From NCBI GenBank assembly GCA_902635845.1, contig CACPPK010000004.1:1-64000 (forward strand): a stretch of 64,000 nucleotides of DNA, read 5' to 3'. The first letter of the stretch is position 1. Each line of letters starts with the position of its first letter. Below the pieces are notes generated by a model, which saw only the letters and a program-made list of their open reading frames with translations, did not search any database and had not been told where the DNA came from. The translations under genes and the position numbers were made by a program. Source of the DNA: an uncultured Pelagibacteraceae bacterium (GTDB taxonomy: Bacteria > Pseudomonadota > Alphaproteobacteria > Pelagibacterales > Pelagibacteraceae). This document shows positions 27,211-47,177 of this stretch, in pieces.

Positions 27211-28676
27211 ACCAACTTGAATTAGAGCGATATCTTTGGGGAGCAGCGGTGCAATTAAGGGGAAAAATTGATGCAGGTGATTATAAACAGTATATATTTC
27301 CTCTGATGTTTTACAAACGTATTTGTGATGTGTACGATGAAGAATTTCAAAATGCTTTAAATAAAAGTGATGGAGATCTTGATTATGCAAGTTTTGATGA
27401 AAATCATACGTTTCAAATACCCAAAAGTGCTCATTGGAACAAACTACGAGAAGTAACCGTGAATGTTGGAATAGCATTAAAAAAAGCTATGAATTTAATA
27501 GAAAAAGCAAATTACTCGACATTGACTGGAATTTTTGGTGATGCATCTTGGTCTAATAAAAGCAGACTTTCAGATGAATTATTAATTAATCTTATTGAAC
27601 ATTATTCTAAATATAAACTTAATTTATCAAATGTGACTGATGATGCACTTGGAAATGCATATGAATATTTGATTAAAAAATTTGCAGATGATAGTGGTCA
27701 TACAGCAGCAGAATTTTATACTAATAGAACCGTGGTCGCTTTAATGACTGAAATTATGGATCCTAAATCTAATGAAACTATTTACGATCCAACGTGTGGC
27801 TCTGGTGGATTATTACTAAATTGCACCTTGCATTTAAAAAAACAAAAAAAAGAGCACAGAACAATAAAATTATATGGACAAGAAATAAACTTGATCACTT
27901 CATCTATTGCACGAATCAACATGTTTGTTCATGGAATAGAGGAGTTTAAAATTATAAGAGGTGATACATTAGCAAACCCAGCATTTATTAATAAAGATAA
28001 GTTAAAAAAGTTCGATGTAATTTTGGCAAATCCTCCGTATTCAATAAAATCCTGGAATCAAAAAAATTTCGAAAGAGATCCATACGGAAGAAATATATGG
28101 GGAACACCTCCAAAAAAATGTGCGGATTATGCTTTTCAGCAACACATACAAAAAAGTTTGAGTAACAAAAATGGTCGTTCAATATGTTTGTGGCCTCAGG
28201 GAATTCAGTTTAGGGATTCAGAAATAAAAATTCGTAAAAATATGATTAAAAGTGATGTTGTAGAGTGTGTAATAAATTTAGGTCCAAATTTATTTTATAA
28301 TTCATCTATGGACTCTTGTTTATTAATTACTAATAACAACAAATCAAAAAAAAGAAAAAATAAGATTATATTTATTGATGCCAGTGATCAAATAAGAAAA
28401 GAGACAAATATGAGTTATTTAGACCCTGAACATATAAAAAAAATTCACGAGGCATATTTACAATTCAAAGATAAAGATAACTTTTGTGCAGTTATTGACA
28501 CTAAAGAAATATTAAAAGACAAAGATGCAAGATTAAGTGTACCATTATTTGTGAAAAAGAAAAGTTTTGTAGAAGAAGATATAGATATATCAATTAACAA
28601 TTTTTTTTTAAACCGTAAAATATTTCAAAAGTCTATGAATAATCTTTTTAAAATTTTATCTCCAACAAAAAAATGA
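27207..28676 (+). CDS. hsdM: Type I restriction-modification methylase HsdM, NPPY type (M2)
   Basis: 489 residues, clearly paralogous to the preceding methylase along its length (for example FPLMFYKRICDVYDEEF against FPLLFFKRISDVYDEEY). Motif I is DPTCGSGGL at about 194-201. Motif IV is NPPY at 275-278. In the described M1M2S class of type I enzymes the NPPY subunit makes N4-methylcytosine. Both methylases keep all visible catalytic residues, so neither looks like a decaying copy. ATGA overlaps on both sides. Confidence 0.93.
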   Translation: MNQLELERYLWGAAVQLRGKIDAGDYKQYIFPLMFYKRICDVYDEEFQNALNKSDGDLDYASFDENHTFQIPKSAHWNKLREVTVNVGIALKKAMNLIEKANYSTLTGIFGDASWSNKSRLSDELLINLIEHYSKYKLNLSNVTDDALGNAYEYLIKKFADDSGHTAAEFYTNRTVVALMTEIMDPKSNETIYDPTCGSGGLLLNCTLHLKKQKKEHRTIKLYGQEINLITSSIARINMFVHGIEEFKIIRGDTLANPAFINKDKLKKFDVILANPPYSIKSWNQKNFERDPYGRNIWGTPPKKCADYAFQQHIQKSLSNKNGRSICLWPQGIQFRDSEIKIRKNMIKSDVVECVINLGPNLFYNSSMDSCLLITNNNKSKKRKNKIIFIDASDQIRKETNMSYLDPEHIKKIHEAYLQFKDKDNFCAVIDTKEILKDKDARLSVPLFVKKKSFVEEDIDISINNFFLNRKIFQKSMNNLFKILSPTKK

Positions 28677-29803
28677 TAGAAATTTCAACTTTCGATATAA
28701 ATAAATCAAATTGGAAATTGATAAAATTAAAAGATATCGCTTTTGAAATTTCTGATAGATTAGATAATCCAAATAAATCTATTTATGACAAATTTGTTGG
28801 ATTAGAAAATTTTATATCGGGAGATATTAAAATTAATTCTTGGCAATCAACAAAAGATCTGGTTTCAAGTGCAAAAGTATTCCAAAAAGGAGATGTTTTA
28901 TTTGCTAGAAGAAATGTTTACCTAAAAAGAGCATCTCTAGTAAATTTTGATGGGTGTTGCTCAGGTGATGCGTTTGTACTTAGAGAAAATGAGAAATTAA
29001 TTATAAATGGATTTTTAGTGTTTATTCTTAATTCGGACCAATTATGGGATTTTGCTACTGCTAATGCAGCTGGAACTATGTCTAAAAGAGTAAAATGGAG
29101 AGATTTAAAAGAATATCAATTTTTATTACCAGATAAACCAACTCAAAAAAAAATTTATAATTTATTAAATAAATTTAATGAATTGAAAGAAAATTATAAT
29201 TTAATTCAAAATAATTTACGTAATTTTTTACATTCTTATATAAATGAATTATTTCACACAAATAAAGAAAGAATAAAAATAAGCGATTGTATAATAAAAA
29301 CAGAAGATAGCAGCAAAGTTGCTGAGGGATTATCTCCTTATATAGAAATAGGAGATGTAGACCTCTTTGATAAATCTCTTAAGATAAAAAATAAAAAATC
29401 AGTAAAAGGCTCATTATTAGTAAAGAAAAACTCAATTTTAGTATCTACAGTAAGACCTAGTAGAGGTGCTATTATTAAACTTTCTGAGGATAGAATTGTA
29501 TCTTCAGCATTTGCAATTCTTCAAGCTCATTTAAAGGTAGTAACTAGTGATTTTTTATTTCATTGTTTGGCATGGAATAACTCGTTTTTAAATTTTACGA
29601 GTAGGTTTGCTACTGGCACAACTTACCCAACAATCACTGATGAAGACATAAAAAAATTTAAAATTCCATTATTAAAAATTTCTGATCAAAATATTGAATG
29701 CAAAAAACTTAACGAAGTTTATAACCAACTGAAAATTTGTAAAAAAAGTTTGAATGAAATTGTTTTGTTAAATAAAAAAATAATTTATAATTTTTTTAAA
29801 TGA
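28673..29803 (+). CDS. hsdS: Type I restriction-modification specificity subunit HsdS
   Basis: 376 residues, with two target-recognition domains: the first at about 10-165 (WKLIKLKDIAFEISDR, then FQKGDVLFARRNVYLKRASL), the second at about 200-360 (EGLSPYIEIGDVDLFDKS, LVKKNSILVSTVRPSRGAI, TGTTYPTITDEDIKKFKIP). Helical spacers follow each, e.g. PTQKKIYNLLNKFNELKEN. It sets the bipartite DNA target and binds the methylases. The two halves are quite different from each other, as expected if they contact different methylases. Confidence 0.92.
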   Translation: MIEISTFDINKSNWKLIKLKDIAFEISDRLDNPNKSIYDKFVGLENFISGDIKINSWQSTKDLVSSAKVFQKGDVLFARRNVYLKRASLVNFDGCCSGDAFVLRENEKLIINGFLVFILNSDQLWDFATANAAGTMSKRVKWRDLKEYQFLLPDKPTQKKIYNLLNKFNELKENYNLIQNNLRNFLHSYINELFHTNKERIKISDCIIKTEDSSKVAEGLSPYIEIGDVDLFDKSLKIKNKKSVKGSLLVKKNSILVSTVRPSRGAIIKLSEDRIVSSAFAILQAHLKVVTSDFLFHCLAWNNSFLNFTSRFATGTTYPTITDEDIKKFKIPLLKISDQNIECKKLNEVYNQLKICKKSLNEIVLLNKKIIYNFFK

Positions 29804-32748
29804 TTTTTGATGAAATTAACAGTGTTGAAAATTTTATAATAAAAAATTTAAGTGGATTTAATTTAAATAATAAAAGATATGATCAAGATAGAAGCTCATA
29901 TAAATGGAATTATAGAAGCTCCAAAACAATTCATAGAGGTACAAAAGAAATATTTGATGAGAAAGAACTAAGGAGAGCTTTATTACGTCTTAACACTAAA
30001 ATAAAAGAAAAACCCCAATTAGCGGATGAAATAATACAAAAACTAAGAGATATATTGATTTCAGTTAATGTTGTTGGTCTTGTCAGAGCTAATGAAGAAT
30101 TTTTGGAATGGATTACAGGCGAAAAAACAATGCCGTTTGGGGAAAATAATGAATATATTCCGATACGAATAATTGATTTTAATGAAATTTCAAATAATAC
30201 TTTCGTAATAACCAATCAATTTCAAGTTCAAAATATTGAATTAAAAAAACCTGATTTAGTTTTATTCATTAATGGAATTCCCATTGTAGTTGGTGAAGCA
30301 AAAACACCTATAAGACCAGCAATAAGTTGGATAGATGGTGCATATGAGATTCACGATATATATGAAAGTTCTATTCCTCAGTTATTTGTACCAAATATAT
30401 TATCATTTGCTACTGAAGGAAAAGAACTTTTTTATGGAGCTGTAAGAAATTCATTACAATATTGGTCACCTTGGAGAATAAATGATAATGAAAATGATTT
30501 AGAAAAGAAACTAGGTCTTGGTGAAATTAAAGAGGAATTAATAGATTTATTAAGTCCTGAGAGACTTTTGGATATTCTTAAGAATTTTTCTTTATTTACT
30601 ACTAATAAAAAAAAACAAAGATCAAAAGTTATTTGCAGGTTTCAGCAATACGATGGTGCAAATAAAATTGTTGAAAGAGTGATTGAAGGTAAAGAAAAAA
30701 AAGGATTGATATGGCACTTTCAAGGATCAGGTAAATCATTACTAATGGTTTTTGCTGCACAAAAACTCAGAAAGCTTGCTAAACTAAAAAGTCCAACAGT
30801 TTTAGTTTTAGTAGATAGAACAGATTTAGATACTCAAATAAGTGGAACATTTAATTCAGCCGATATCCCAAATATTGAAACCACTGAAAATATAAAAGAA
30901 TTACAAAAAATGTTAGAACTAGATACTAGAAAAATAATAATTTCAATGATTCATAAATTTAAAGATGCTAAGCCAGATTTAAATTTAAGAGATAATATAA
31001 TTGTTTTAGTAGATGAAGCTCATCGTACCCAAGAAGGTGATCTTGGAAGACAGATGAGAGCTGCTTTACCGAATGCATTTTTATTTGGTCTTACTGGAAC
31101 ACCGGTTAATAAAGTAGACAAAAACACTTTTTGGGCATTTGGATCAAAAGAAGACAAAAGTGGTTATTTATCAAGATATTCTTTTGATCAATCTATAAGA
31201 GATAACGCAACTTTAAAATTACATTTTGAACCAAGGTTGATCGACCTTCATGTTGATCAAAAAGCACTAGATAAAGCAATGGAAGAGTTTAAAGAAAGTG
31301 CTGCACTTACCGATGATGAGGCAGATGCTTTAAATAAAAAATCAGCAAAAATGTCAGCATTTTTAAAATCCCCAGAGAGAGTAGCAAAAATTGTTGAAGA
31401 TATTGCAAAACATTTTAAAGAAAAAGTTCAGCCACACGAACTAAAAGCGATGATAGTTACTCCTGATAGGGAAGCATGTGTTCAATATAAAGAGGAATTA
31501 GATAAATACTTTAAAACAGAAGCAAGCAGAGTTGTGATTACCACTTCAGCTAATGATGATTTAGAATTTAAAAAAAAATGGGGAATCGATAAATCAGAGC
31601 AAGAAAAAATTGTTGATGAGTTTAATGATAAAGATTCTGATTTAAAATTTATTATTGTAACTGCTAAACTTCTAACTGGATTTGATGCTCCAATTCTTCA
31701 AACAATGTATTTAGATAAATCATTAAAGGAGCATACACTTATCCAGGCAATTTGTAGAACTAACAGGCCTTATCCTGGAAAAAATTTTGGATGTATTGTT
31801 GATTATTTTGGCGTTTTTGATGATATTGCAAAATCACTTAACTTTGATGAAAAAGAAGTCAATTCAATAATATCCAATCTTTCTGAATTAAGAGATAAAC
31901 TTAAACCAGCGATTGATGAAGCACTCAAACACTTTGAAGGAATTGATAGAGCTATGATAGGTTTTGAAGGCCTTGAGCAAGCTCAGCAAAAAATAAATAC
32001 AGATGAAAAAAAAGATGCTTTTGCACAAGATTACAAATATTTAGCGAATATTTGGGAGTCGCTTTCACCCGATAAAATTTTAAATTTATATAATGATGAT
32101 TATAAATGGCTAACTAACGTATATGATTCTGTAAGACCATCATCTGATAATACAGGCAAGCTTCTTTGGTTTACTTTTGGGGCTCAAACAACCTCCTTAA
32201 TTCATGAAAATGTTCATGCAGGAAATATTCACAAATTAGAGGAATTTGTATTAGATGGAAATGTAATTGAAGAAATTATTCAAAACCCTGATCCAAAAAA
32301 AATCAAAGAAGTTGAAAAAATATTAATTTCAAGATTTAAAAAACATACAAATGATCCAAAATTTAAAAATTTGAGCGAAAGATTAATTGAAATAAAAAAT
32401 AAGTTAGAAGAAGGATTAATTACATCAATTGAATTTGTAAAAGAATTGTGCAAATTAGCAAAAGAAACACTGAAGCTTGAAAAAGAATTACAAGAAAAAA
32501 CCCCTAAAGCAGCATTAACAGATCTTTTTTTAGAAATTAAAAATGATCAAACACCAGCAGTTGTAGAGAGAATTGTTACTGATATTGATGCAATAGTTAA
32601 AATAGTAAGATTTCCTAATTGGCAAAGTAGTAATGCAGGACAAAGGGAGGTACAAAAATCATTAAGACAAACTCTTCTAAAATATAAATTACATAAAGAT
32701 CAGGTGTTGTTTGAGAGAGCCTACGAATATATTAAAGAGTATTATTAG
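29800..32748 (+). CDS. hsdR: Type I restriction enzyme HsdR, nuclease-translocase subunit
   Basis: 982 residues. An N-terminal PD-(D/E)XK nuclease is seen with Asp152 in KPDLVLF and Glu166-Ala-Lys168 in VVGEAKTP. The SF2 translocase follows: Walker A GSGKS at about 309-313, DEAH box at 405-408 (VDEAHRTQEGD), LFGLTGTPV, and motif VI QAICRTNRPYPGK. The C-terminal helical part (about 720-982) is typical for binding the methylase core. It cuts unmodified DNA after translocation. Last gene of the four-gene operon. Confidence 0.95.
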   Translation: MIFDEINSVENFIIKNLSGFNLNNKRYDQDRSSYKWNYRSSKTIHRGTKEIFDEKELRRALLRLNTKIKEKPQLADEIIQKLRDILISVNVVGLVRANEEFLEWITGEKTMPFGENNEYIPIRIIDFNEISNNTFVITNQFQVQNIELKKPDLVLFINGIPIVVGEAKTPIRPAISWIDGAYEIHDIYESSIPQLFVPNILSFATEGKELFYGAVRNSLQYWSPWRINDNENDLEKKLGLGEIKEELIDLLSPERLLDILKNFSLFTTNKKKQRSKVICRFQQYDGANKIVERVIEGKEKKGLIWHFQGSGKSLLMVFAAQKLRKLAKLKSPTVLVLVDRTDLDTQISGTFNSADIPNIETTENIKELQKMLELDTRKIIISMIHKFKDAKPDLNLRDNIIVLVDEAHRTQEGDLGRQMRAALPNAFLFGLTGTPVNKVDKNTFWAFGSKEDKSGYLSRYSFDQSIRDNATLKLHFEPRLIDLHVDQKALDKAMEEFKESAALTDDEADALNKKSAKMSAFLKSPERVAKIVEDIAKHFKEKVQPHELKAMIVTPDREACVQYKEELDKYFKTEASRVVITTSANDDLEFKKKWGIDKSEQEKIVDEFNDKDSDLKFIIVTAKLLTGFDAPILQTMYLDKSLKEHTLIQAICRTNRPYPGKNFGCIVDYFGVFDDIAKSLNFDEKEVNSIISNLSELRDKLKPAIDEALKHFEGIDRAMIGFEGLEQAQQKINTDEKKDAFAQDYKYLANIWESLSPDKILNLYNDDYKWLTNVYDSVRPSSDNTGKLLWFTFGAQTTSLIHENVHAGNIHKLEEFVLDGNVIEEIIQNPDPKKIKEVEKILISRFKKHTNDPKFKNLSERLIEIKNKLEEGLITSIEFVKELCKLAKETLKLEKELQEKTPKAALTDLFLEIKNDQTPAVVERIVTDIDAIVKIVRFPNWQSSNAGQREVQKSLRQTLLKYKLHKDQVLFERAYEYIKEYY

Positions 32749-34586: not shown

Positions 34587-35294
34587 ATGAAATGGAACAA
34601 AAAATATAATTATCCGTCTTCAACTAGAAGTGTTCATCAAGGATTCAGACATTATGCTTTAAATAATCAGATGCTTCCATCTGTGACATCCATTATTGAG
34701 ATGACAAAAACAGACCAAGAAAAAGAATCTCTTGCTGCATGGAAATCACGAGTTGGTGAAGCGGAGTCGTCAGCTATTTCAAGGGAAGCTGCTAAAAGAG
34801 GAAGTGAGATGCATTCCAACATAGAACATTTTTTATTGGGTAAAGATAATTTAAATTTATTTGAAGATGAAAAGGAAAAATCAAAATCAAGAATGATGTC
34901 CGATCTTATAATAGAAGAAGGGCTTAGAGATAAACTTGAAGAAATTCATGGTGTTGAGTGTGTTCTTTATTATCCTGGACCAAAAGGATTTGCAGGATCA
35001 AGTGATTTAATTGGAATGTACTCAGGTGTACACAGTGTAATTGACTTCAAACAAAAAAATTCAATTATGAAAGAAAGTTACGATTCGTTACAAAATTATT
35101 ATACTCAATTGGGTGGTTATAGTTTAGCCCATAACAAAGTATATGGTTCAAATATTTCTCAGGGAGTTATTTTGTTAGCTACCACTGATCTAGTTTTTCA
35201 AATTTTTAGAATTAAAGATGAAAAACTTATAGAGTATCAAAACAAATTTCTTGAAAGAGTTGATCAATACTATGAACTCATTTCAAAGAAATAA
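34587..35294 (+). CDS. Phage-type PD-(D/E)XK exonuclease
   Basis: 235 residues. An N-terminal VTSIIEMTKTDQEKESLAAW and AKRGSEMHSNIEHFL resemble the exonucleases of marine podoviruses and myoviruses. The nuclease core has GSSDLIG (Asp) and VIDFKQK (Asp-x-Lys), then a QLGGYSLA helix. Such enzymes belong to the RecB/lambda-exonuclease-like or MGME1-like group. It lies in the small-gene patch and is probably of phage origin. Substrate and polarity are not known. Confidence 0.75.
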   Translation: MKWNKKYNYPSSTRSVHQGFRHYALNNQMLPSVTSIIEMTKTDQEKESLAAWKSRVGEAESSAISREAAKRGSEMHSNIEHFLLGKDNLNLFEDEKEKSKSRMMSDLIIEEGLRDKLEEIHGVECVLYYPGPKGFAGSSDLIGMYSGVHSVIDFKQKNSIMKESYDSLQNYYTQLGGYSLAHNKVYGSNISQGVILLATTDLVFQIFRIKDEKLIEYQNKFLERVDQYYELISKK

Positions 35295-35303
35295 ATTTCC
35301 CTG

Positions 35304-35567
35304 CTAAACTCTTTTAACAGGGAAATTGCCAGCTTTGATAAAAGCAATCATTTCGTTTTCATCAATAACTGTTGTACCAAATGCTTTAGCTTTTTTAGCT
35401 TTAGAAGTGTCTTTTCTAGAGCTGATTAAGTAATCAGTTCTGCTACTAACTCCACTCACAAATCTAGCATTTGTCTTATTGTGTATTTCTACTATTGCAT
35501 CTACTCTTTTGTACTTTTCTAACGCTCCAGTAATGCAGAATGTTGCTGTTGGTTGTTTATTTTTCAT
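35304..35567 (-). CDS. Stand-alone BRCT-domain protein
   Basis: About 87 residues from the ATG at 35567, preferred because it has AAAGGA six bases upstream. The whole protein is one BRCT domain: ATFCITGALEKYKR, ARFVSGVSSRTDYLIS and a closing ENEMIAFIKAGNFP. It resembles the C-terminal BRCT of NAD-dependent DNA ligase. A free BRCT domain is unusual in bacteria; it could bind DNA ends or the host ligase. It converges with the exonuclease gene (9-base gap). Confidence 0.78.
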   Translation of the reverse strand: MKNKQPTATFCITGALEKYKRVDAIVEIHNKTNARFVSGVSSRTDYLISSRKDTSKAKKAKAFGTTVIDENEMIAFIKAGNFPVKRV

Positions 35568-35651
35568 TTTTTTATCCTTTTGTTGTTTGTTCATGAGGGA
35601 AGTAAAACACGCTTTTTCTTTGATTTAGAGTCCAATAAAATCTAGGATAAA

Positions 35652-37288: not shown

Positions 37289-37304
37289 CAACTGAATGGA
37301 GTTT

Positions 37305-37526
37305 ATGATCAAAAATAAAGATAGAGTTAAAGTTAAGAGATATCATTGTTATTTCTGTAACTGCACAGGTTTTTTTAATAAAAAACAGACCATCTTCCAA
37401 ATATGGAATTGGGGATATGAATTTATCAACAAAAAGATTTGTCGTTATTGCAATGGGCGAGGATTTACTGTTTTAAAACATAAATTTGAAGCTCTAAATA
37501 ATTATAAAAGCTATCGGGAGCACTAA
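37305..37526 (+). CDS. Small zinc-knuckle protein
   Basis: 73 residues from ATG 37305, chosen because GGAG lies just upstream; an in-frame ATG at 37296 has none. Two CxxC knuckles, CYFCNCTGFF and CRYCNGRGF, resemble the CxxCxGxG repeats of DnaJ zinc domains and should bind one zinc. The rest is basic. RNA, DNA or protein binding is possible. Function unknown. Confidence 0.62.
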   Translation: MIKNKDRVKVKRYHCYFCNCTGFFNKKQTIFQIWNWGYEFINKKICRYCNGRGFTVLKHKFEALNNYKSYREH

Positions 37527-37766: not shown

Positions 37767-38042
37767 ATGACTGATACAAGCAAATATTCAAATATAAGCG
37801 TTTCTAAGAAAACTTATTCAGACCTTCAAAGACTAAGTAAAGAAATTCTTCCTGGAGATACTAATCTTTCAATTTCAAAAACGGTAACTCATTTAGTTGA
37901 TTGTAAAATCAAGGAATCTAATGATCTTCTATACTTACAGGGTTATCAAACAGAAGAAACAGGTTTTACCCCACCTAAAAACATAATTAACAGGGTAATC
38001 AACAACTCTAACAAAAAGGATAAAAAAAATGGAAAAAAATAA
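37767..38042 (+). CDS. Small ribbon-helix-helix-like protein
   Basis: 91 residues. The N-terminal half (YSNISVSKKTYSDLQRLSKE then TNLSISKTVTHLVDCKIKE) has the strand-helix-helix pattern and spacing of RHH DNA-binding proteins, as in many antitoxins and repressors. The tail is basic. A strong GGAGG site precedes the ATG. Its end overlaps the GHKL-protease gene by 14 bases, so it probably acts as regulator of that operon. The fold call is by pattern only. Confidence 0.55.
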   Translation: MTDTSKYSNISVSKKTYSDLQRLSKEILPGDTNLSISKTVTHLVDCKIKESNDLLYLQGYQTEETGFTPPKNIINRVINNSNKKDKKNGKK

Positions 38043-39606
38043 GAAAATGGAAATATATAAAAATTTAATTCTAGATGTTCCTGGAGTTAAAACGGCTAAA
38101 TTTGAAAAATCAATCGAAAGTTCAGTGACAACTTCATGGGGTGTTAATTGGGATGCCGATTTTATTGCAAGAGATATCCTTCAAAATTTTAGAGACTCAA
38201 ATCTATCTGAGATTGAGAAAGTAGTTGTTAATACTAAAAATGACAGAATATTAGTCGAAGGTAATAATTGTTTTGATTTAAGAAAATTATTCTTCGTTGG
38301 CTCTAATAAAGCTGGAGACGAAACAACTGTAGGTGAGTATGGTGAGGGATTTAAGGCTGCTGTAGTTTCAATGCTGAAAAGAGGTATACAAGCTCCCGTA
38401 TCTGTTTCAGCTGATACAGCTGTAGTAATAGATGTTGGTGAAGAAGTTGTCGAAGACTTAAGACCACTAGTTTATCATTTTTTTAAAGTTAACAAGCAAA
38501 ACAAAACTAGCTTTATGGTTCATACTTACGATAAAGAATTAAAAGCAGCTTTTGATTTTGGAATGTCACACTTTTGGTTTGAAAAAAATCCATTAGTTGG
38601 TGAAGAGCTAAATTATTATAACGATATAGCTTGTTACAAAAGTACAAATCCTAACACTGGTTATTTATTTTATAGAGGTGTTATGAGAGGTACAATTGAT
38701 CATATTCCTATCGTAATTAATATTCCAAAAAAATATGCTCAAATTGAAAATAAGATTAAGAGTGACCGTGATCGAAACTCGTTCGATAACAAATTAGTAA
38801 ATAATTTTTTAAATATTTGGGCGAGATCTGGTTTTCATTATCACTCAATGCAGAATAATCCAGCGATACAGTATATATTAGAAAAATCGCGAAAGATTTG
38901 GGATAAGGGACATCCGTTGTTAGCTGCCTTAGCCAATAATGCTTGGAATATTAAAGATGACAAATCTTTAATAAAATTGTTTGGCAATAAATATTTTGCA
39001 GAGTCAGCACATTATCATTCGAGAGCAATCACATGGAGTGAATGGTATGACAAAAAAACACAAACTTACATAATTAAAAAAGACAGAGAACTTGAGAAAA
39101 AAGGAAAAATTAAATTACCGAGTTACTTTGTAAGGTTTGGAGTTACTTCTTCGCTTGAAATGTTTATAAAAAATAAAGAGGCGTTAGAAAAAAGAATAAG
39201 AACAAAAAAAACAGCACCACTTAACACTAAGCAAAAAAAAGCTGTTAATTATGCAATAGAATGTATTTCTAAAGTTGCTCCTAGTTTTAGTTCTCTTTAC
39301 AACAGTTTTGTAGAGGACCAAGGCATCTATGAACTAGATTTTAAAACTATCGAGTCAAAGGATTTGCTTGGAGAATTGAAAGACTCTAGAGATTATGATG
39401 GCAAAACAATTTATTTGAATAAAGATTTATTTAAATCAAATTTTGGAAAATTCTTTGCAATCTTAACTCATGAAATGGGTCATGTTTTTGGTAAAGACGG
39501 TGAAAGAGAATTCTCCGATGTATTAACTCATATCATAGCTCAAGCAGTAGAGAAAAATTCTGTAATATCAAAGTATTCTAAAAGCTGGGCAAGGTATAGA
39601 GCGTAA
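38029..39606 (+). CDS. GHKL-ATPase fused to an HExxH metalloprotease-like domain
   Basis: 525 residues. The N-terminal GHKL fold is suggested by an N-box ARDILQNFRDS (47-57), a G1-like VEGNNCF and a lid GEYGEGFK (102-109), as in Hsp90/MutL/MORC-type ATPases. The C-terminal part has HEMGH at 481-485 in ILTHEMGHVFGKDGEREFSD, with Glu494 as a candidate third zinc ligand. The middle 200 residues are unassigned. I know no named family with this pair of domains. It has AAGGA before the ATG and is coupled to the ARPP-1 gene (TAATG). Confidence 0.72.
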   Translation: MEKNKKMEIYKNLILDVPGVKTAKFEKSIESSVTTSWGVNWDADFIARDILQNFRDSNLSEIEKVVVNTKNDRILVEGNNCFDLRKLFFVGSNKAGDETTVGEYGEGFKAAVVSMLKRGIQAPVSVSADTAVVIDVGEEVVEDLRPLVYHFFKVNKQNKTSFMVHTYDKELKAAFDFGMSHFWFEKNPLVGEELNYYNDIACYKSTNPNTGYLFYRGVMRGTIDHIPIVINIPKKYAQIENKIKSDRDRNSFDNKLVNNFLNIWARSGFHYHSMQNNPAIQYILEKSRKIWDKGHPLLAALANNAWNIKDDKSLIKLFGNKYFAESAHYHSRAITWSEWYDKKTQTYIIKKDRELEKKGKIKLPSYFVRFGVTSSLEMFIKNKEALEKRIRTKKTAPLNTKQKKAVNYAIECISKVAPSFSSLYNSFVEDQGIYELDFKTIESKDLLGELKDSRDYDGKTIYLNKDLFKSNFGKFFAILTHEMGHVFGKDGEREFSDVLTHIIAQAVEKNSVISKYSKSWARYRA

Positions 39607-40547
39607 TGTTAAATTTTAATTTTAATTACAATATATCTGATACTGTAAAAAAAAATAATATTACTATTTTCTTTTTGCAATCAAAGACAAAACTTGAGAA
39701 TAATTTTTTGACTTTAGAGGAGTCAATATCCAAAAGTTTAGTGGATATTAAAGAAGTAAATTCTAAAGGTACTATTAGATATCTTAAAGTTTCAAATAAA
39801 TCTAATCAGAAATTATTAATATTAGGATCAGAACAAATTATAGGAAATGCTTTGAAACAAAATCGAGTGGTTAATAATACAACGTTAGTACCAGAACAGA
39901 CAACTATACTGTTGAGTGTTAGTTGTTGTGAAAAAAATAGATGGAGCCCAGCAGTAGCTAATAATATCTGTACCTCAGAATCTCTATATTTTACAAAAGG
40001 AAGAATTAATAACTCAGTGGATATTTTTGATAATAATAAAACCGATCAGTTTAAAATTTGGGATGATATAGCTGAAAAATTAGATGAATTTAACACTAAG
40101 TCTTTTACTGGTACTCTGGAAGACACATATAACAAAAACAAACTTTATTTTGATGAAATTACTAATTATTTTAAAATAAATGAAAATGATGTTGGAGTAG
40201 TTGCAGCGATAGGAAATAGATTGGTAAATGTTGAAATATTTTCTAGCAATAAACTTTTGAAAATTTATTTTCCCAAAATAATTAAAAGTTTGGTTTTTGA
40301 AAGTTACAAAAAAACCTCTCAGAATTATCTTTTAGGATTAAAAGATGTGTATAAACTCTTTAGATTAATTGAATTTTCTGAAAAAAAATTGCATAAACCA
40401 TATAATGACTGTTTAGGTGAAGAAATTCGTTTTAACAGCGATAGAGTAGTTGGCTCATGCTTAAATTATAAAGGGAAATTGCTTCATTTTTCAGGATTTT
40501 TAAAAGATGATATGAACGTTCCTCTATTTAAAAGTAAGGTAGCATAA
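39606..40547 (+). CDS. ARPP-1 domain protein
   Basis: 313 residues. The conserved ARPP-1 region is LTLEESISKSLVDIKEV (35-51), then LILGSEQIIGNALKQNRVVN (71-90) and LVPEQTTILLSVSCCEKNRW (94-113). ARPP-1 stands for ADP-ribosylglycohydrolase and rhodanese-phosphatase associated protein, a domain linked to predicted immune or conflict gene clusters; biochemical function unknown. Its start overlaps the GHKL-protease stop by one base and RmuC begins two bases after it. Confidence 0.75.
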   Translation: MLNFNFNYNISDTVKKNNITIFFLQSKTKLENNFLTLEESISKSLVDIKEVNSKGTIRYLKVSNKSNQKLLILGSEQIIGNALKQNRVVNNTTLVPEQTTILLSVSCCEKNRWSPAVANNICTSESLYFTKGRINNSVDIFDNNKTDQFKIWDDIAEKLDEFNTKSFTGTLEDTYNKNKLYFDEITNYFKINENDVGVVAAIGNRLVNVEIFSSNKLLKIYFPKIIKSLVFESYKKTSQNYLLGLKDVYKLFRLIEFSEKKLHKPYNDCLGEEIRFNSDRVVGSCLNYKGKLLHFSGFLKDDMNVPLFKSKVA

Positions 40548-40549
40548 TT

Positions 40550-41608
40550 ATGGATTATTTAACTTTATTAATTGGATTATTGATAGGAGCAATACTTGGA
40601 TTTATTGGCAATCAATTGTTTCAAAAAATAAAAGCAGAGCAAAAAGAGGATAATGATCAGGATGATGTTATCTCTGAAATAAAAGCATTAAAGCAAGAAG
40701 TAAAAGAATATAACGATAGTGCAAACACTGATCGTGGATCTATTAATCAAATATTAACTGATATGAGAACCGCAGAACAACAAGTGGGACAAGCAGCAAT
40801 GGAAATAAAAAGAACTCTTGTGACTGGCGGAGGTCAAAAACAAGGTGCCTGGGGTCAATTGATTTTAGAACATATATTAGAAAATAAACTCCAATTTACT
40901 AAAGGTGAGGAATTTGAGGTTCAAAAAAGTTTTAATACTAATGATGGTAGATTAATACCTGATGTAATTGTTCATTTCCCAGATGGAAGAGATGTTGTTA
41001 TTGATAGTAAAGTTTCTTTAACTGCATGGGACCGATATGTAAACGCAACCGATGAGTCAGAGAAAACAGAGGCATTAAATGATCATAGAAAGTCAATTAA
41101 AGCACACATTGACTCGCTCGCGTCGAAAAATTATCAAAATATAAAAGATATAAATTCTTTAGATACAGTAATTATGTTTTGTCCCAATGAGCCATCAATT
41201 TCTTCGTTAGGTGACATAAGTAGAAATATAATGGATTACGCTATATCTAAGAAAATAACTTTAGTAGGACCTTCAATGTTATATTTTGCATTGAAGACAG
41301 TAGAGTATTTCTGGAAAACAGAAAAACAATCAAAAAACGTCCAAAACATTATTGAACTTGCAAATAAGGTTAGTTCTCAGGCGGCTGAAATTTATGATAG
41401 TGCTAAAACTGCTCAGGAAAGCATGGAAAAGTCTATGAATAAATTAGACAATGTTATGGGTAAAATTAAAGATGGGAAGGGAAGTTTATTATCAAGGATT
41501 TTAAAGATGATTTCTATAGGAGGACTTTCTCCCAAAAAAGAGATTCCAAACAATTTAAAAAATGAAATAAGCGATGAAGATGAGGACGATGATGAAGAAA
41601 AAAAATAA
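40550..41608 (+). CDS. rmuC: DNA recombination protein RmuC
   Basis: 352 residues. N-terminal membrane helix (LTLLIGLLIGAILGFIGNQL), coiled-coil linker, then the RmuC nuclease-like core: GAWGQLILEHILENKLQFTKG, DGRLIPDVIVHFPDGRDVVIDSKVSLTAW in pieces, and VIMFCPNEPSISSL. RmuC is predicted to be a PD-(D/E)XK-type nuclease (Asp and DSK motifs visible) limiting inverted-repeat rearrangements. Here it is part of an accessory operon instead of a stand-alone housekeeping gene. Confidence 0.88.
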   Translation: MDYLTLLIGLLIGAILGFIGNQLFQKIKAEQKEDNDQDDVISEIKALKQEVKEYNDSANTDRGSINQILTDMRTAEQQVGQAAMEIKRTLVTGGGQKQGAWGQLILEHILENKLQFTKGEEFEVQKSFNTNDGRLIPDVIVHFPDGRDVVIDSKVSLTAWDRYVNATDESEKTEALNDHRKSIKAHIDSLASKNYQNIKDINSLDTVIMFCPNEPSISSLGDISRNIMDYAISKKITLVGPSMLYFALKTVEYFWKTEKQSKNVQNIIELANKVSSQAAEIYDSAKTAQESMEKSMNKLDNVMGKIKDGKGSLLSRILKMISIGGLSPKKEIPNNLKNEISDEDEDDDEEKK

Positions 41609-41900: not shown

Positions 41901-43322
41901 ATGTCTAAAATACTTACGATCGACTATGAAACTTCAGACTCTAGGGTAAATTTTGGGCAAGTCTTGCAAGCAGGAATAGTTATATCTGATGATAAACTTA
42001 ATATTCAATCTAGACATGAGTTAAGATGTAGACTTAAACCTACGGTAATACCATCAATTGGCGCATGTTTAGTTCACAAAATTCCAGTGAACATATTAAA
42101 AAATTCAAACAAATCTCATTATGAAATGGTACTAGAACACTATAACTTAATTAAGGATAATACTCCATCAGTTGTGATGGGATTTAACCAAGTGGCATTC
42201 GATATAGAATTTTATCGAAGGATGCTTTACAAATCTTTGATACCTGACGTTTATCAAACTAATACTAATGGGAACCGACACTTAGATATTTTAAACGTAT
42301 CTAGAGCTGCTAAATTTGCAGATAACGATTCAATTCAAACAATTCTCAATGAAAAAAATAGAGACTCATTTAAGTTGGCGGATCTTAGTACAGCAAATAA
42401 AATTAATAATGGTACATCTCATGATGCAATAACTGACTGTTTGAATTCAATAGATCTTGCTAGAATTATTTTTAAAAAAACAAATCATATTTGGAATGAT
42501 GCTTTATTGTTAACAACAAAAAAAGATACAGAGAATTTTATTTTAAAAAATAAAATTTATACTTCTTTAGAGTACTTTTATGGTAATACTCACCCTTTTC
42601 TTTGCCATCATATTTTATTTCATCCTCAATACCAGTGGTCAATAAATTGGGACATGAAAGTGGATCCAGAAATTTATTTAAAAATGGACCGACAAACTCT
42701 TTCAAAAGCGCTAGAAAGTTCGCCAAAAATTATAAGAACAGTAAAATGTAATAAATCATTAGTATTACTGAACCCTGATTATGCAATGAAAACTCAGAAG
42801 TACTCTGAGATTGGTTTAGAAGAAATTCATAGAAGAGTAAAAATTCTAGATAATAATCCTCAGTTTATTGAATTAATTGGTTCTATATTGTCGGATAAAG
42901 CTCAGCAAAAAATGAGCATGGACCAAACTGAACTTTTGTTTGAAGAAACTATTTACTTTGGAGGTTTTGCTAAAGAAAAAGACAAATCTTTAATGAAAAA
43001 GTTCCATCAAGTTGAATGGAAAGAAAAAGTAAATTTAATTGATAAATTTTCTGAAGAAAGATTTCAGTATTTTGCTAAATGCTTAATCTACGAAGAAAGC
43101 CCTGAAAGTTTACCTAAATCTATTTTTAATGAAATTAATAGAAGTTTTGCACAAAGACTATTATCAAAAAATAAAGAAAAGTGGGAAACGATTCCAAGTT
43201 TTTATTCTGAAGTTGATACATTAAGAGAACTAAAATACCAAGATGACGAGGAAATGCTTGAATTAATTGAGCAATACAATCAATACGTAATGGATATAGA
43301 GTCTAAGTTAGAAAGTGCTTAA
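41901..43322 (+). CDS. sbcB: Exodeoxyribonuclease I
   Basis: 473 residues. DEDDh exonuclease domain: DYET (Asp8, Glu10), FNQVAFDIEFYRRML near 100, and HDAITDC (His and Asp) near 175. The C-terminal SH3-like and helical extension of ExoI follows (e.g. NHIWNDALLLTTKK onward), of about normal length. It degrades single-stranded DNA 3' to 5'. ExoI is not a standard feature of this kind of genome, which fits acquisition with the island. Confidence 0.87.
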   Translation: MSKILTIDYETSDSRVNFGQVLQAGIVISDDKLNIQSRHELRCRLKPTVIPSIGACLVHKIPVNILKNSNKSHYEMVLEHYNLIKDNTPSVVMGFNQVAFDIEFYRRMLYKSLIPDVYQTNTNGNRHLDILNVSRAAKFADNDSIQTILNEKNRDSFKLADLSTANKINNGTSHDAITDCLNSIDLARIIFKKTNHIWNDALLLTTKKDTENFILKNKIYTSLEYFYGNTHPFLCHHILFHPQYQWSINWDMKVDPEIYLKMDRQTLSKALESSPKIIRTVKCNKSLVLLNPDYAMKTQKYSEIGLEEIHRRVKILDNNPQFIELIGSILSDKAQQKMSMDQTELLFEETIYFGGFAKEKDKSLMKKFHQVEWKEKVNLIDKFSEERFQYFAKCLIYEESPESLPKSIFNEINRSFAQRLLSKNKEKWETIPSFYSEVDTLRELKYQDDEEMLELIEQYNQYVMDIESKLESA

Positions 43323-43336
43323 TTTTTTTCAGTTGT

Positions 43337-46300
43337 ATGAATAAAAATTTATTTTTAACAGCATCAATGCTAGTGAATTTTATTAATCACAAGCATTTAA
43401 TAATAGATGAATTTAAAGAAAAATTATTAAATATTAAAAAATCAGAAAAAACTGTTGTTGATAATTTAAGAATAAAGAAAGGTTTAATTCATGAGGAAAA
43501 TTATTTTAAAGAACTAAGCAAAAAATATAAAAAAGTAAAAAATATCAAAATTTTAAATAAATTATCAAAAGAAGAAAAAATTAAAGAGACCAATGATGCT
43601 TTGAAAAAAGGTTATGAATTAATTTATGGTGGTTGGTTAAAATCTGGTAATTTTAGAGGTGAGTTAGATTTTTTAGAAATCAATTATAATGTCAAATCAA
43701 ATTTAGGTAATTGGAGTTATGAAATTATTGACACTAAAAATAGTGCAAAAGTAAAAGGAGATCATATTTACCAACTAAGTTTATATTCATTTTTACTTCA
43801 AGAAGCTCAAGGAGTGTTTCCTAAAAATTTTTATGTTTTATTAAAAGATAAAAGTAAAGTTCCCATCCTGCTTAATGATGTATACGCATCTTTTTTAAAA
43901 CAAAAAAAATATTTTGAAAAGTTTATGGAAAATGAATTAAACAGAAAAATACTGGAAAAAATCAGTTATTGTTCTTTAAGGGATATACAAGAATTTTGTG
44001 AAAATGAATGGAAAGAAAAAAAGCATTTAAATCAGGTATTAGGAGGCAATAAAAATAATATAAAAAAATTGAATAGTGCTGGAGTAAATAATTTTAAAGA
44101 ATTGGCAAAATTAGACTTAAAAAAAAAGATTGATGGGTTAAGAGATGAGACAAAAATAAAATTAATTAAGCAAGCTAAATTGCAAATTGAAGGTGAAAAG
44201 AAAGGATATCCTATATTTGAAATTAAAGAGGAAAATTTAATATTAAACAAAGGATTTAACCTAATACCCAAACCCTCAGAATGTGATTTGTTTTTCGACA
44301 TTGAAGGAGTGCAAGATTATGTTTTTCCTGGAAAATTAGAGTATTTATTTGGTGTCTACTATGAAGAAAATGGAGAAAAAATATTCAAACCTTTTTGGGC
44401 TCACAATAAAAAAGAGGAAAAACAAAGTTTAATTGATTTTTTTGCTTTCACCAAAGCACACTTTAAGAAGTATCCAAAAGCTAAAATTTTTCATTATGCC
44501 TCATACGAAATTACGGCACTTGAGCGTTTGACATCTTTACATAAAGTGCATGGAGTTGATTATGATCATTATCTAAACCTTGGAAGATTTGTTGATTTAT
44601 TTAGAGTTGTAAAACAAGCAATTAGAGTTTCTCAAAACAGTTATTCAATTAAAGAAATCGAAAAATATTATGATTTTAAAAGAATAGGAGATATCAAAAA
44701 AGGTGATGTTTCTGAGGAGTATTACATTCAATGGATGGAGACAAAAGATAAAAAACTTTTAGAGGAAATTGAAGAATATAACAAACAAGACTGTATTAGT
44801 ACTTTTAAGTTGAGAAACTGGTTATTAAAAATTAAACCAGAAGATACCAAATGGTATGTCCCTGAAAAGGAACATTTTGAACTTAGACCCTTTGAGGAAA
44901 TACTTCTGGATTACCAAAAAAAATTTAATGAATCAAAATATAAAGATAAACCAACAGTAAAATTACTCTCAGATGTAATAGGTTATTATAACCGAGAGCA
45001 AAAACCATCCTGGAGATTATTTTTTGACAGGAAAGATTTGTCTGATGAAGAATTAATTGATGACAGAGAATGTATTGGAAACATGAAATTAGTAGCTCAA
45101 TTTGAAGACAAGCGGTCGATTGAGTACAAGTTCCTCTTCCCTGAGCAGGAATATAAGCTCAAAAAGGGAAGAAGTGTTATCATTGCAAATAATAATGATC
45201 CAGATAGGGCAGATCATGCTGGCACTATTAAAGAGCTCGACCAAATAAATAGATCTTTGGTTTTAAGAAAGGGTTTTTCCAAAGAAAAAAAACAACTTCC
45301 AAGAACATTATCTATTGGAGAGAAAGTTATGGAGCATTCACGTTTTGATAACCTTAATAAAAATATTTATAATTTTTGTGAAAATATTTTGGAAAATAAA
45401 AAAGGATACGAGGCTTTAAAAAGTTTTCTTAATAGAGATATACCAAATATAAAAGGTATTAAGCCAGGTGATAAAATTATTAAGTCTGAAAATTTTGATA
45501 AAGAGATACCTGATATAATTTCAAAGTTAAATTCCTCATATATTTTTGTGCAAGGAGGACCTGGTTCTGGAAAAACATTTTATACTGCTAATGCAATCGT
45601 TGAGTTATTAAAAAAAAATAAAAAAATAGCTGTTTCAGCAAATTCTCATAAAGTAATTCATAACTTACTAGAAAGAATAGAAAATATAGCAATCAATCAA
45701 GATTTTGTTTTCAAAGGTCTCAAAAAAGGAAACCCCAATGATATTGATAGTTTTTATGATGGAAAACTAATCAAAACAGATAGTAATGAGAAACATTATA
45801 TTGACGGATTAAAAGAAAATAAAATTTTACTTTATGCAGGAACCAAATATCATTTAGCCTCGTGGTATTACAGAAGCAAAATAGATTATCTTTTTATTGA
45901 AGAGGCAAGCCAATTTTCGTTAGCTGATTGTATTTCACTGGGTGGGATTGCCACAAATATTGTTTTAGTTGGCGATCAACAACAACTTGGACAACCAACC
46001 CAGGGAAGTCATCCTAATTTATCTGGAAATTCAGTTTTAGAATATTTACTAAAAGGAAAAGACACAGTGCCTGCTGATAGGGGAATATTTTTAACAAGAA
46101 CTCATCGAATGCATTCAAATATAAATTCATTCATTTCAGAAAACTTTTATGAAAATAAACTACTAACTAATCCTCAAAATCAAAATAGGAAAATAGATTT
46201 TCCAAAAAATTTTTTCATAAATAAGGAAGGCATACATACTATTTTAATGGATCATGAAGACTGTAAACAAACTAGTGAACAAGAATTTAAAAAAATAGAT

Positions 46301-46702
46301 GAAATAATTAAAAAATTAATTGGTAAAATATTTACAGATGTTGATAAAAAAGAACGACCATTAACAATACAAGATTTTTTAATTGTTGCTCCTTATAATG
46401 CTCAAGTTAATTTTTTATTAGCTAGATTGCCAGAAGGTACACGTTGTGGAACGATCGACCGATTTCAAGGCCAACAAGCGCCTATTACAATTATTTCTAT
46501 GACAAGTTCTGATCTTGAAAGTTTACCAAGGAATAAATCCTTTTTTTTTAATAGTAATAGATTAAATGTAGCTATTTCAAGAGCACAGTGCATAAGTATT
46601 ATTCTTATTAATCCTAAATTATTAGAGTCTCCGCCAAAAACTTATGAGGAATTTAAATTAATGAATAATTTTCAAAAATTATTAAAATTTACAATTAATT
46701 AA
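43337..46702 (+). CDS. RecB-like nuclease / RNase H-like / SF1 helicase fusion (TM0106-type, Dna2-like)
   Basis: 1121 residues. N-terminal RecB/Cas4-like nuclease: GELDFLE (Asp111), IIDTKNS (Asp132, Lys134), YQLSLYSFLL. Middle RNase H/DEDD domain: CDLFFDIEGVQDY (Asp321, Glu323), later YNKQDCIST. C-terminal SF1 helicase: Walker A GGPGSGKT (740-747), VGDQQQLGQPTQGSHP, LTRTHRMHSNINSFI, TIDRFQGQQAPI and LNVAISRAQ. This combination is the TM0106 family, related to Dna2 end-processing enzymes. Probably 5' or 3' end resection. Confidence 0.88.
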   Translation: MNKNLFLTASMLVNFINHKHLIIDEFKEKLLNIKKSEKTVVDNLRIKKGLIHEENYFKELSKKYKKVKNIKILNKLSKEEKIKETNDALKKGYELIYGGWLKSGNFRGELDFLEINYNVKSNLGNWSYEIIDTKNSAKVKGDHIYQLSLYSFLLQEAQGVFPKNFYVLLKDKSKVPILLNDVYASFLKQKKYFEKFMENELNRKILEKISYCSLRDIQEFCENEWKEKKHLNQVLGGNKNNIKKLNSAGVNNFKELAKLDLKKKIDGLRDETKIKLIKQAKLQIEGEKKGYPIFEIKEENLILNKGFNLIPKPSECDLFFDIEGVQDYVFPGKLEYLFGVYYEENGEKIFKPFWAHNKKEEKQSLIDFFAFTKAHFKKYPKAKIFHYASYEITALERLTSLHKVHGVDYDHYLNLGRFVDLFRVVKQAIRVSQNSYSIKEIEKYYDFKRIGDIKKGDVSEEYYIQWMETKDKKLLEEIEEYNKQDCISTFKLRNWLLKIKPEDTKWYVPEKEHFELRPFEEILLDYQKKFNESKYKDKPTVKLLSDVIGYYNREQKPSWRLFFDRKDLSDEELIDDRECIGNMKLVAQFEDKRSIEYKFLFPEQEYKLKKGRSVIIANNNDPDRADHAGTIKELDQINRSLVLRKGFSKEKKQLPRTLSIGEKVMEHSRFDNLNKNIYNFCENILENKKGYEALKSFLNRDIPNIKGIKPGDKIIKSENFDKEIPDIISKLNSSYIFVQGGPGSGKTFYTANAIVELLKKNKKIAVSANSHKVIHNLLERIENIAINQDFVFKGLKKGNPNDIDSFYDGKLIKTDSNEKHYIDGLKENKILLYAGTKYHLASWYYRSKIDYLFIEEASQFSLADCISLGGIATNIVLVGDQQQLGQPTQGSHPNLSGNSVLEYLLKGKDTVPADRGIFLTRTHRMHSNINSFISENFYENKLLTNPQNQNRKIDFPKNFFINKEGIHTILMDHEDCKQTSEQEFKKIDEIIKKLIGKIFTDVDKKERPLTIQDFLIVAPYNAQVNFLLARLPEGTRCGTIDRFQGQQAPITIISMTSSDLESLPRNKSFFFNSNRLNVAISRAQCISIILINPKLLESPPKTYEEFKLMNNFQKLLKFTIN

Positions 46703-46703
46703 A

Positions 46704-47177
46704 ATGACAAAAAATATAAAAGACACCAATCCATATGATTTGAAAGTTTTAGAGAATGAACCTAAAGATTATTTAGATACAGATGATTTTTCTAAATTTC
46801 TTAAAAAAAAAAATATATCAGTAAGAGAAGATAACCTTCCTAGATTTGCTGATACACATGGTATCAAAATGGCTAGAAAAAAAAGAGAGGGTTCAGGAGG
46901 GTCAGTTCCTACGATTTATAAAATACCCATTAAGGCAAAATTGGATGAAATAAAAAAAAGTATGTCTTTAAATAATAATAATGCTTTGGGAAAAGAGAAC
47001 CTTAAAAATAAAGAGAAAAAAATATTAGAAATATTTGATAAAGCTGAAAATAAGAAAGAATCAAAATCTTCTATAGCCGATAAAGTAGCTAAAGCGCTTG
47101 GAGTTCCTTGTAATAGAAAATTAGTTAGAAGAGTTTTGAAAGAAAAAAGGTCTTCTAAGTTAAGTAAATTATTATAA
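46704..47177 (+). CDS. Small basic protein, possible DNA-binding
   Basis: 157 residues, last gene of the island operon, one base after the helicase-nuclease. An N-terminal region (DTDDFSKFLKKKNISVREDN) could be a helix-turn-helix; a Gly-rich joint (KKREGSGGSVPTIYKI) and a basic C-terminal helix (ADKVAKALGVPCNRKLVRR) follow. It may be a DNA-binding accessory. No family recognised. Confidence 0.55.
   Translation: MTKNIKDTNPYDLKVLENEPKDYLDTDDFSKFLKKKNISVREDNLPRFADTHGIKMARKKREGSGGSVPTIYKIPIKAKLDEIKKSMSLNNNNALGKENLKNKEKKILEIFDKAENKKESKSSIADKVAKALGVPCNRKLVRRVLKEKRSSKLSKLL

Follow-up and report, generated by a model that had tools for sequence, protein, structure and literature searches.

A predicted GHKL ATPase-zincin fusion protein encoded in a nuclease cassette of SAR11 bacteria

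What is the role of a protein that joins an ATPase fold of the Hsp90 and topoisomerase kind to a zinc-protease motif, and why is it encoded among nucleases? The question is raised by the window, a stretch of 64,000 nucleotides (G000:C4:1-64000) from the 1.09 Mb, 76 % complete genome of an uncultured Pelagibacteraceae (SAR11) bacterium, which encodes a 525-amino-acid fusion protein, here called P0001. The original prediction, made from the sequence alone, had described a GHKL-type ATP site at one end of this protein and an HEMGH motif at the other, and had placed the combination in no known family. Our literature search for a GHKL-zincin architecture, with most subscription papers and all preprints outside its scope, found no description among the papers listed either, and a search for SAR11 together with RmuC returned nothing describing the fusion; the ATPase half does, however, group with the phage family phrog_6077. 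Each fold is known by itself; what appears to be new is their combination and its setting.

A GHKL fold joined to a Wss1-like zincin and encoded no more than two genes from RmuC points to a protease with a gate, one that would clear DNA ends for nucleases. Our tentative reading, held with somewhat less than even confidence, is that P0001 is an ATP-gated Wss1-like protease that would strip proteins from DNA for an exchangeable nuclease module. This reading builds on both folds, as observed in relatives, on conserved motifs, gene coupling and association with nucleases, and on divergent versions at one chromosomal site. If it is true, an ATP-driven clamp confines unspecific proteolysis to DNA, where eukaryotes use ubiquitin and DNA sensing. 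A phage family of unknown function would gain a testable role, RmuC and ARPP-1 would gain a partner, and one of the ocean's most numerous bacterial groups would carry a new exchangeable nuclease module.

The predicted ATPase and protease ends of the fusion protein

The protein and its parts lie as follows.

38029..39606, + strand: GHKL ATPase-zincin fusion protein, 525 amino acids (open reading frame (ORF) call, motifs, profiles, predicted structures)
38029..38898, + strand: GHKL ATPase fold and transducer-like domain, about residues 1-290 (profiles, predicted structures including that of the relative L072)
38170..38196, + strand: N-box R-D-I-L-Q-N-F-R-D, residues 48-56 (alignments)
38332..38355, + strand: ATP-lid motif G-E-Y-G-E-G-F-K, residues 102-109 (alignments)
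38764..38775, + strand: D246-R-D-R249 motif in the transducer-like part (alignment A6)
39214..39558, + strand: Wss1-like zincin domain, about residues 396-510 (profile comparisons)
39469..39483, + strand: HEMGH, H481-H485, predicted zinc-binding and catalytic motif (sequence, alignment)
39496..39498, + strand: D490, predicted third zinc ligand (alignment A10)

ORF calling and alignment confirmed the 525-residue frame, with the N-box, the GEYGEGFK lid and HEMGH at 481-485 where they had been predicted. In 20,000 shuffles of P0001, HExxH arose in 1.4 % and QNxxD together with GxxGxGxK in 0.025 %. Residues R48, D49, L51, Q52, N53 and D56 of the N-box and G102, G105, E106, G107 and K109 of the lid are invariant in all 12 SAR11 alignment rows, which include near-duplicates. 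Both motifs are invariant or almost so across the 48 rows that also hold phage sequences, and none of the 48 (A6) departs from R247, D248 and R249. The N-box acid is D49 in SAR11 and Glu in all 43 phage rows; its Asn is present in every row of both groups.

The predicted structure of P0001 has a mean predicted local distance difference test score (pLDDT) of 58.9 and is fair over residues 1 to about 300. Its sole Foldseek match with an expectation value (E) below 0.001 is TRAP1 (E 1.4e-4, probability 1.00, template modelling score (TM) 0.26, root-mean-square deviation 8.8), followed by Hsp90 and a topoisomerase subunit intermixed with unrelated rows. The model of the phage relative L072 (pLDDT 93.2) consists of a GHKL ATPase and transducer followed by a zincin core. 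Foldseek matched it to Hsp90, MORC3/4 and type II topoisomerase ATPase subunits (16 matches with E below 0.001, TM to query 0.22-0.34), and the listed VIA-align rows had Z 11.2-12.6, for example the phage T6 topoisomerase II ATPase domain over 219 residues at 3.7 A. Full-length models were used, and these lists are filled by the GHKL part and so say nothing of the zincin. The predicted GHKL fold is thereby borne out; neither a model lacking that fold nor an HEMGH lying outside a zinc-protease fold, the two outcomes named in advance as refuting, was obtained.

Residues 27-124 of P0001 match phrog_6077 (E 1.7e-8). The phage protein P0002 belongs to this family (E 2e-88) and passes the Pfam cut-off for HATPase_c_3 (E 5e-6). 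In NCBIfam the sacsin ATP-binding domain matches P0001 at E 0.0014 and L072 at 1.8e-8, under the cut-off in both proteins; P0001 reached no cut-off in NCBIfam or Pfam (M48 at E 0.1) and had no relative in the PDB by phmmer. Among the hallmarks of the GHKL superfamily, the Bergerat fold, the acid and Asn of the N-box and the GxxGxG of the G2 or lid motif are present and the DxGxG of G1 is absent. With MORC, type II topoisomerase ATPase subunits and Hsp90 the fusion protein shares the Bergerat fold, a transducer-like domain, N-box and lid; it differs from them in the absence of G1 DxGxG, the change of the N-box Glu to Asp in SAR11, the invariant RDR motif and the C-terminal zincin. On these models the N-terminal part is a divergent GHKL-fold protein, predicted rather than proven to be an ATPase.

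HEMGH and a downstream Glu had been proposed together as a metal site. The first part stood: H481, E482 and H485 are invariant in the 12 SAR11 rows and are kept in the distant bacterial copy L017. In alignments A5, A9 and A10 phage rows were admitted only with HExxH, so that their agreement there is by selection. The second part fell, since E492 and E494 vary (E494 is Asn in L012 and Thr in L017; E492 is Ser or Gln in others), and a Glu was rejected as third ligand. The conserved residue is D490, an Asp in 15 of the 16 rows of A10 and, in L060, Glu or Asp depending on gap placement. All 16 rows also share G448, part of the LLG segment that precedes HExxH.

In the L072 model the C-terminal part is ordered as helix 349-363, strands 370-376, 383-385 and 390-394, helix 401-416, within which HELAH occupies 410-414, and helix 425-441. 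This order equals that of the zincin core in PMC5512222 (helix, three strands, HExxH helix, C-terminal helix); the third ligand given there, a Glu of the second helix, is not conserved in this family. The order is seen in L072 and not in P0001, and the tie between them comes from profile comparison, since the SAR11 and phage C-terminal alignments match in hhalign over 99 columns (probability 97.8, E 1.2e-12). By way of this homologue, the HExxH of the fusion protein is predicted to sit in a zincin-like core.

Which zincin is it closest to? Against the PDB, the joint profile A10 (16 sequences) placed yeast Wss1p first (E 3.2e-4, positions 15-106 of 125, with the LLG segment covered), then proabylysin (1.1e-3) and other zincins at 0.03 and worse; a phage-only profile again placed Wss1p first (E 0.0024). 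Under the Pfam cut-off, SprT-like was matched at E 0.005-0.1 by four of the eight HExxH-bearing phage proteins scanned and WLM at 0.021 by one; for P0001, WLM and SprT-like were unlisted at E 1, and the phage relatives stayed under the curated cut-off. A match of the full-length profile A1 to 3q3w (E 0.0076, positions 406-470, off the motif), accompanied by one weaker row, looks like chance. Wss1/SPRTN (WLM, SprT-like) and the fusion families share the zincin core with HExxH, the LLG segment before it and, after it, a Gly, an acidic or His position and then xxF. The third zinc ligand of Wss1 is a His, and to judge by the alignment D490 seems to stand in its place; GHKL-fold fusion and unreached Pfam cut-offs further set P0001 apart from these families.

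The lost G1 motif, together with an Asp as third-ligand candidate, would fit a protein that has no catalytic activity in its zincin or its ATPase and serves as a scaffold for nucleases. We consider this quite improbable: all SAR11 rows and L017 retain HExxH and D490, and the lid and the acid of the N-box persist across the clade.

Distribution in bacteria and phages

The fusion gene occurs in 10 of the 297 genomes of the family, the window's own included, and in 4 of the 127 that are at least 90 % complete. Eight further full-length SAR11 copies share 46-90 % identity, and the copy in G072 is split over two contig pieces. Four named records lie at 90-91 % identity, one of which (L003) seems to be the same contig as that of G105, with equal length and equal match position. 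A class-wide sample of 385 genomes had the gene only in the window's own genome; when 398 genomes from across the phylum were searched by profile, the hits were this genome and G818, a member of another class whose 519-amino-acid protein matches at both ends. Among 48 genomes of the class of G818, that protein was matched end to end (E 4e-118, the protein itself being in the profile) and one further genome weakly, in the ATPase part only (E 7e-6). Only one full copy was found outside SAR11. Its gene, in locus L100 (G818:C58, 591-7912), adjoins those of two proteins resembling GAF/histidine kinases by eye and of a 437-amino-acid receiver-domain protein, for which Pfam Response_reg falls slightly under the cut-off; this single case, with labels mostly by eye, hints at a signalling link of that copy.

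With tblastn of P0001, named phages showed the ATPase part only, in five Vibrio phage records, and plasmids nothing. Scans of viral contigs with P0001, A1, P0002 and the protein of L017 gave no confirmed relative, and a conserved-motif scan with A3 gave 52 relatives of the phage protein in IMG/VR, 43 of which entered A6 and 41 A7, duplicates and others being omitted. A C-terminal HExxH is present in 10 of the 52, and L072-L074 agree in motif and length. Members of phrog_6077, annotated as 'histidine kinase-like ATPase' in Vibrio phages and of unknown function, share the related ATPase part and the DRDR motif; the two Vibrio phage members read lack HExxH. The neighbours of six HExxH-bearing phage genes, read by eye, were uninformative, and L071 was not resolved. 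In sum, the layout turns up in 9 further SAR11 genomes of the 297, a single genome from a different class and 10 of the 52 related viral contigs.

Fusion genes of the window and L002 differ by 0.060 nonsynonymous (dN) and 1.69 synonymous (dS) substitutions per site, this dS being near saturation, and those of L002 and L005 by dN 0.009 and dS 0.578. The fusion gene is under strong purifying selection.

Could P0001 be a phage-derived counter-defence protein of the RIIA kind that the host has retained? Its nearest ATPase relatives outside SAR11 are mostly phage proteins, and BFVD gives many RIIA proteins of similar fold. According to PMC7824862, T4 RIIA likewise has an N-terminal GHKL domain and a variable C-terminal part. 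The likeness is structural only, however, as neither P0001 nor P0002 matched a PHROG named RIIA, and such families as they did match are of unknown function. None of the neighbouring genes was recognised as rIIB-like, no rIIB profile having been searched, and the SAR11 copies sit at a core locus under the selection just described. We know of no protease motif in RIIA, and find this origin highly improbable.

The nuclease cassette and its chromosomal site

The genes around the fusion gene that enter the comparison are these.

34587..35294, + strand: PD-(D/E)XK-type exonuclease (phrog_298, exonuclease, E 4e-36; Pfam PDDEXK_1 under cut-off)
37296..37526, + strand: 76-amino-acid Cys-rich protein with CxxC pairs, common to L021-L023 (locus comparison)
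37767..38042, + strand: 91-amino-acid protein upstream of the fusion gene, ribbon-helix-helix-like (RHH) by eye
39606..40547, + strand: ARPP-1 domain protein with conserved Cys and Gln (Pfam PF20208, E 7e-56)
40550..41608, + strand: RmuC family protein (Pfam PF02646, E 7e-72; NCBIfam PRK10361 below cut-off)
41901..43322, + strand: ExoI/SbcB-like exonuclease (Pfam PF08411, E 6e-13)
43337..46702, + strand: RecB-like nuclease (TM0106), RNase H-like domain and superfamily 1 (SF1) helicase in one 1121-amino-acid protein (TIGR03491, E 1e-71; PF13482, PF13087)
46704..47177, + strand: 157-amino-acid protein, no family above cut-off, conserved in 8 of 14 loci

The 91-amino-acid ORF runs 14 bases into the fusion gene, whose stop overlaps the ARPP-1 start (TAATG), and RmuC starts 2 bases past the end of ARPP-1. 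Thus, the fusion gene is part of a tightly packed gene run, and it is translationally coupled to ARPP-1.

We compared 14 loci from 13 genomes, several of them mutually close relatives, with trxA, folC, hisG and hisZ named by eye. RmuC, identified by Pfam in the window and four more loci and by BLAST clustering elsewhere, lies at most two genes downstream of the fusion gene in all 12 loci long enough to show it, L004 and L029 being truncated. An ExoI-like gene is present in 12 of the 14; L004 is cut, and L028 and L029 are two pieces of one genome, with an ExoI-like gene in L029. Downstream, trxA follows in 12 loci and folC in 11, the rest being cut (L004 and L029; L005 for folC), and L024 may have intervening genes. 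ARPP-1 is present in 8 loci. Seven aligned copies of these eight conserve one Cys and one Gln, matched by eye to the description in PMC9503650, whose authors propose that ARPP, by way of a conserved Cys and Gln, links covalently to sugars in an SRAP-like way. The 1121-amino-acid protein occurs in 7 of the 14 loci, at varying places in the cassette, and the Cys-rich protein just upstream of the fusion gene in 4.

A second cassette type, in five genomes (L024-L028), has near the fusion gene a protein family with an S24 domain (LexA/CI-like) in one of three members scanned (E 1.3e-5, L027), together with small proteins and, in L025, a WGR domain. An HExxH protein beside a putative regulator recalls ImmA/IrrE. 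A DNA-damage or infection signal might lead such a protease to cut the adjacent repressor, RHH-like in the window's cassette type and S24-like in the second, and so turn the nuclease cassette on. A small putative DNA-binding gene does overlap the fusion start and is present in 6 of the 14 loci, the window counted; the S24-bearing family lies near the gene in the five second-type genomes; and GHKL domains often serve as switches. Against such a role, no regulator is common to all loci, L021-L023 having neither kind, the RHH label is by eye, with no Pfam or NCBIfam match passing a cut-off, and the zincin is nearest Wss1 by sequence among solved structures. The third ligand of ImmA/IrrE is a Glu after HExxH, which here is not conserved at either E492 or E494, and Pfam, PADLOC and NCBIfam scans listed no match to families of this type. 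We regard the regulatory role as doubtful, though with a real chance of being right.

At the chromosomal level, hisZ and folC are 4.4-4.5 kb apart in 9 of 13 genomes checked and 24 kb apart in the window. Five of these nine short sites, all from non-carriers of the fusion gene, were read (G003, G063, G017, G051 and G043) and hold hisG, RmuC, a PD-(D/E)xK exonuclease and ExoI in between; trxA is present in four, G051 having another small ORF instead. These genes were Pfam-checked for G003 only, PDDEXK being under the cut-off there. Best identities between the five non-carriers and the carriers are 46-80 % for folC, 33-37 % for ExoI and 28-31 % for RmuC.

Trees were made from the carriers and six non-carriers at hand (18 rows for ExoI, 18 for RmuC, 16 for folC). 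In the ExoI tree a branch with 100/99 support splits 12 carriers from 6 non-carriers. The folC tree requires three changes of carrier state (two to three in bootstrap trees, none having one). The RmuC tree requires two, because the RmuC of L005 and G105 (L030) is nearer the non-carrier kind. Read most simply, these sequences suggest that the fusion brings along an ExoI, and usually an RmuC, of its own, which would displace the resident ones. L005 and L030, carriers whose RmuC groups with the non-carrier kind, indicate that parts of the module are exchanged separately. A third version of the site, in G078 (L097, G078:C1:1087900-1106900), has hisZ and folC 36 kb apart and holds DUF2130, a further RmuC, a 694-amino-acid protein whose leucine-rich match is weak, and a small protein with a relative in the second cassette type.

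The divergence among the versions that different genomes hold at this site, with a Type I restriction set beside the cassette in the window, raises the possibility of an anti-phage effector, in which a sensor clamp would recognise a phage protein or DNA structure and halt infection by proteolysis of a host or phage protein. The 1121-amino-acid helicase-nuclease matches PADLOC MkoA (E 5e-36), and ARPP occurs in predicted antiviral systems according to PMC9503650. With these systems the cassette shares ARPP-1 as a tightly coupled neighbour and the theme of DNA ends, that paper reporting a HIRAN association; Pfam found no ADP-ribosyl glycohydrolase or rhodanese-phosphatase among the 10 window ORFs scanned, and the words GHKL and HSP90 are absent from the main text of PMC9503650. 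The sole PADLOC match of P0001 is weak (PDC-S05, E 0.0027), relatives are found in phages themselves, and RmuC, PD-(D/E)xK and ExoI-like genes stand at non-carrier loci too. We judge a dedicated anti-phage effector to be unlikely.

Replacement of AddAB by the cassette beside trxA-folC was considered and not borne out, AddA being above the cut-off in none of the 297 family genomes; weaker matches occur in 242, and the rows shown look UvrD-type by eye. With AddA at 0 of 297, the RmuC, PD-(D/E)xK exonuclease and ExoI of this site may carry a larger share of DNA-end work than elsewhere.

Proposed clearing of DNA ends by a gated protease

How might an ATP-gated, Wss1-like protease work in this setting? 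Wss1 is the yeast counterpart of SPRTN, HMCES is the SRAP protein of eukaryotes, and MORC and topoisomerase ATPases act as dimer gates. SPRTN is reported to remove proteins crosslinked to DNA, as is its yeast counterpart, and HMCES to interact with abasic DNA sites, where it forms adducts. For P0001 we infer a dimer gate, DNA binding, proteolysis and a substrate. The GHKL and transducer part would dimerise upon nucleotide binding and, in the manner of the ATP gate in MORC or type II topoisomerases, close round DNA or a complex bound to it. The next step would fall to the C-terminal zincin, which would cut proteins held on DNA by crosslinks or tight binding, and the cleared ends would be processed by the RmuC, the ExoI-like and, where present, the RecB-like/helicase enzymes of the cassette. 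Where a lineage has ARPP-1, this protein is a candidate for the substrate or for a partner. Different versions of the module would swap at one chromosomal site, possibly serving phage resistance besides repair. With DNA-processing genes as neighbours, a role in clearing DNA is a better fit than the generic sensor-effector first proposed.

Several observations weigh against clearing of DNA by such a protease. At the protease end, the C-terminal part is poorly modelled in P0001 itself (pLDDT under 50), and profile A8, built from SAR11 sequences alone, misses Wss1 in the PDB, its top match being a dehydratase (E 9e-4) over a region without HExxH and its first zincin coming at E 0.22; an Asp takes the position of the third His of Wss1, and HExxH is lacking in 42 of the 52 viral relatives. 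At the ATPase end, SAR11 members lack the DxGxG of G1, the motif in contact with adenine in most GHKL ATPases, and it is degenerate in almost all of the 43 phage rows (L083 has DNGIG), which makes ATP binding uncertain. No DNA-binding element came to light in the fusion protein. Presence in only 10 of 297 family genomes argues against a housekeeping role in crosslink repair, and the second cassette type has no ARPP-1, which is thus not a universal substrate. As for exchange, the window's folC stands beside those of the non-carriers G003 and G063 at 93/98, below the level at which branches were starred; if only starred folC branches count, a single change suffices, and both the ExoI tree and the folC tree have long branches that meet.

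It would be striking if one operon paired a crosslinker, ARPP-1, with a protease for crosslinks, though this could explain no more than a part, given the cassettes without ARPP-1. A broader proposal is that bacteria and phages own an ATP-clamped protease of the Wss1/SPRTN type and that in SAR11, with ARPP-1 as covalent binder of DNA sugar (of SRAP-like chemistry), RmuC, ExoI and the helicase-nuclease, it forms a self-contained crosslink-and-release pathway parallel to the eukaryotic HMCES-SPRTN one, exchanged at one locus under phage pressure. This we think rather unlikely as a whole.

Two further features of the window may be added. The Type I restriction set, upstream of the cassette, spans 25735-32748 and comprises two tandem, diverged HsdM-like genes (25735-27210 and 27207-28676), mutually related by BLAST, an HsdS-like gene and HsdR; the HsdM and HsdS labels are by eye and HsdR comes from the PADLOC scan. 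A 96-amino-acid ORF on the minus strand (35304-35594) looks by eye like a stand-alone BRCT domain and has a homologue, among the 14 loci, only in L002.

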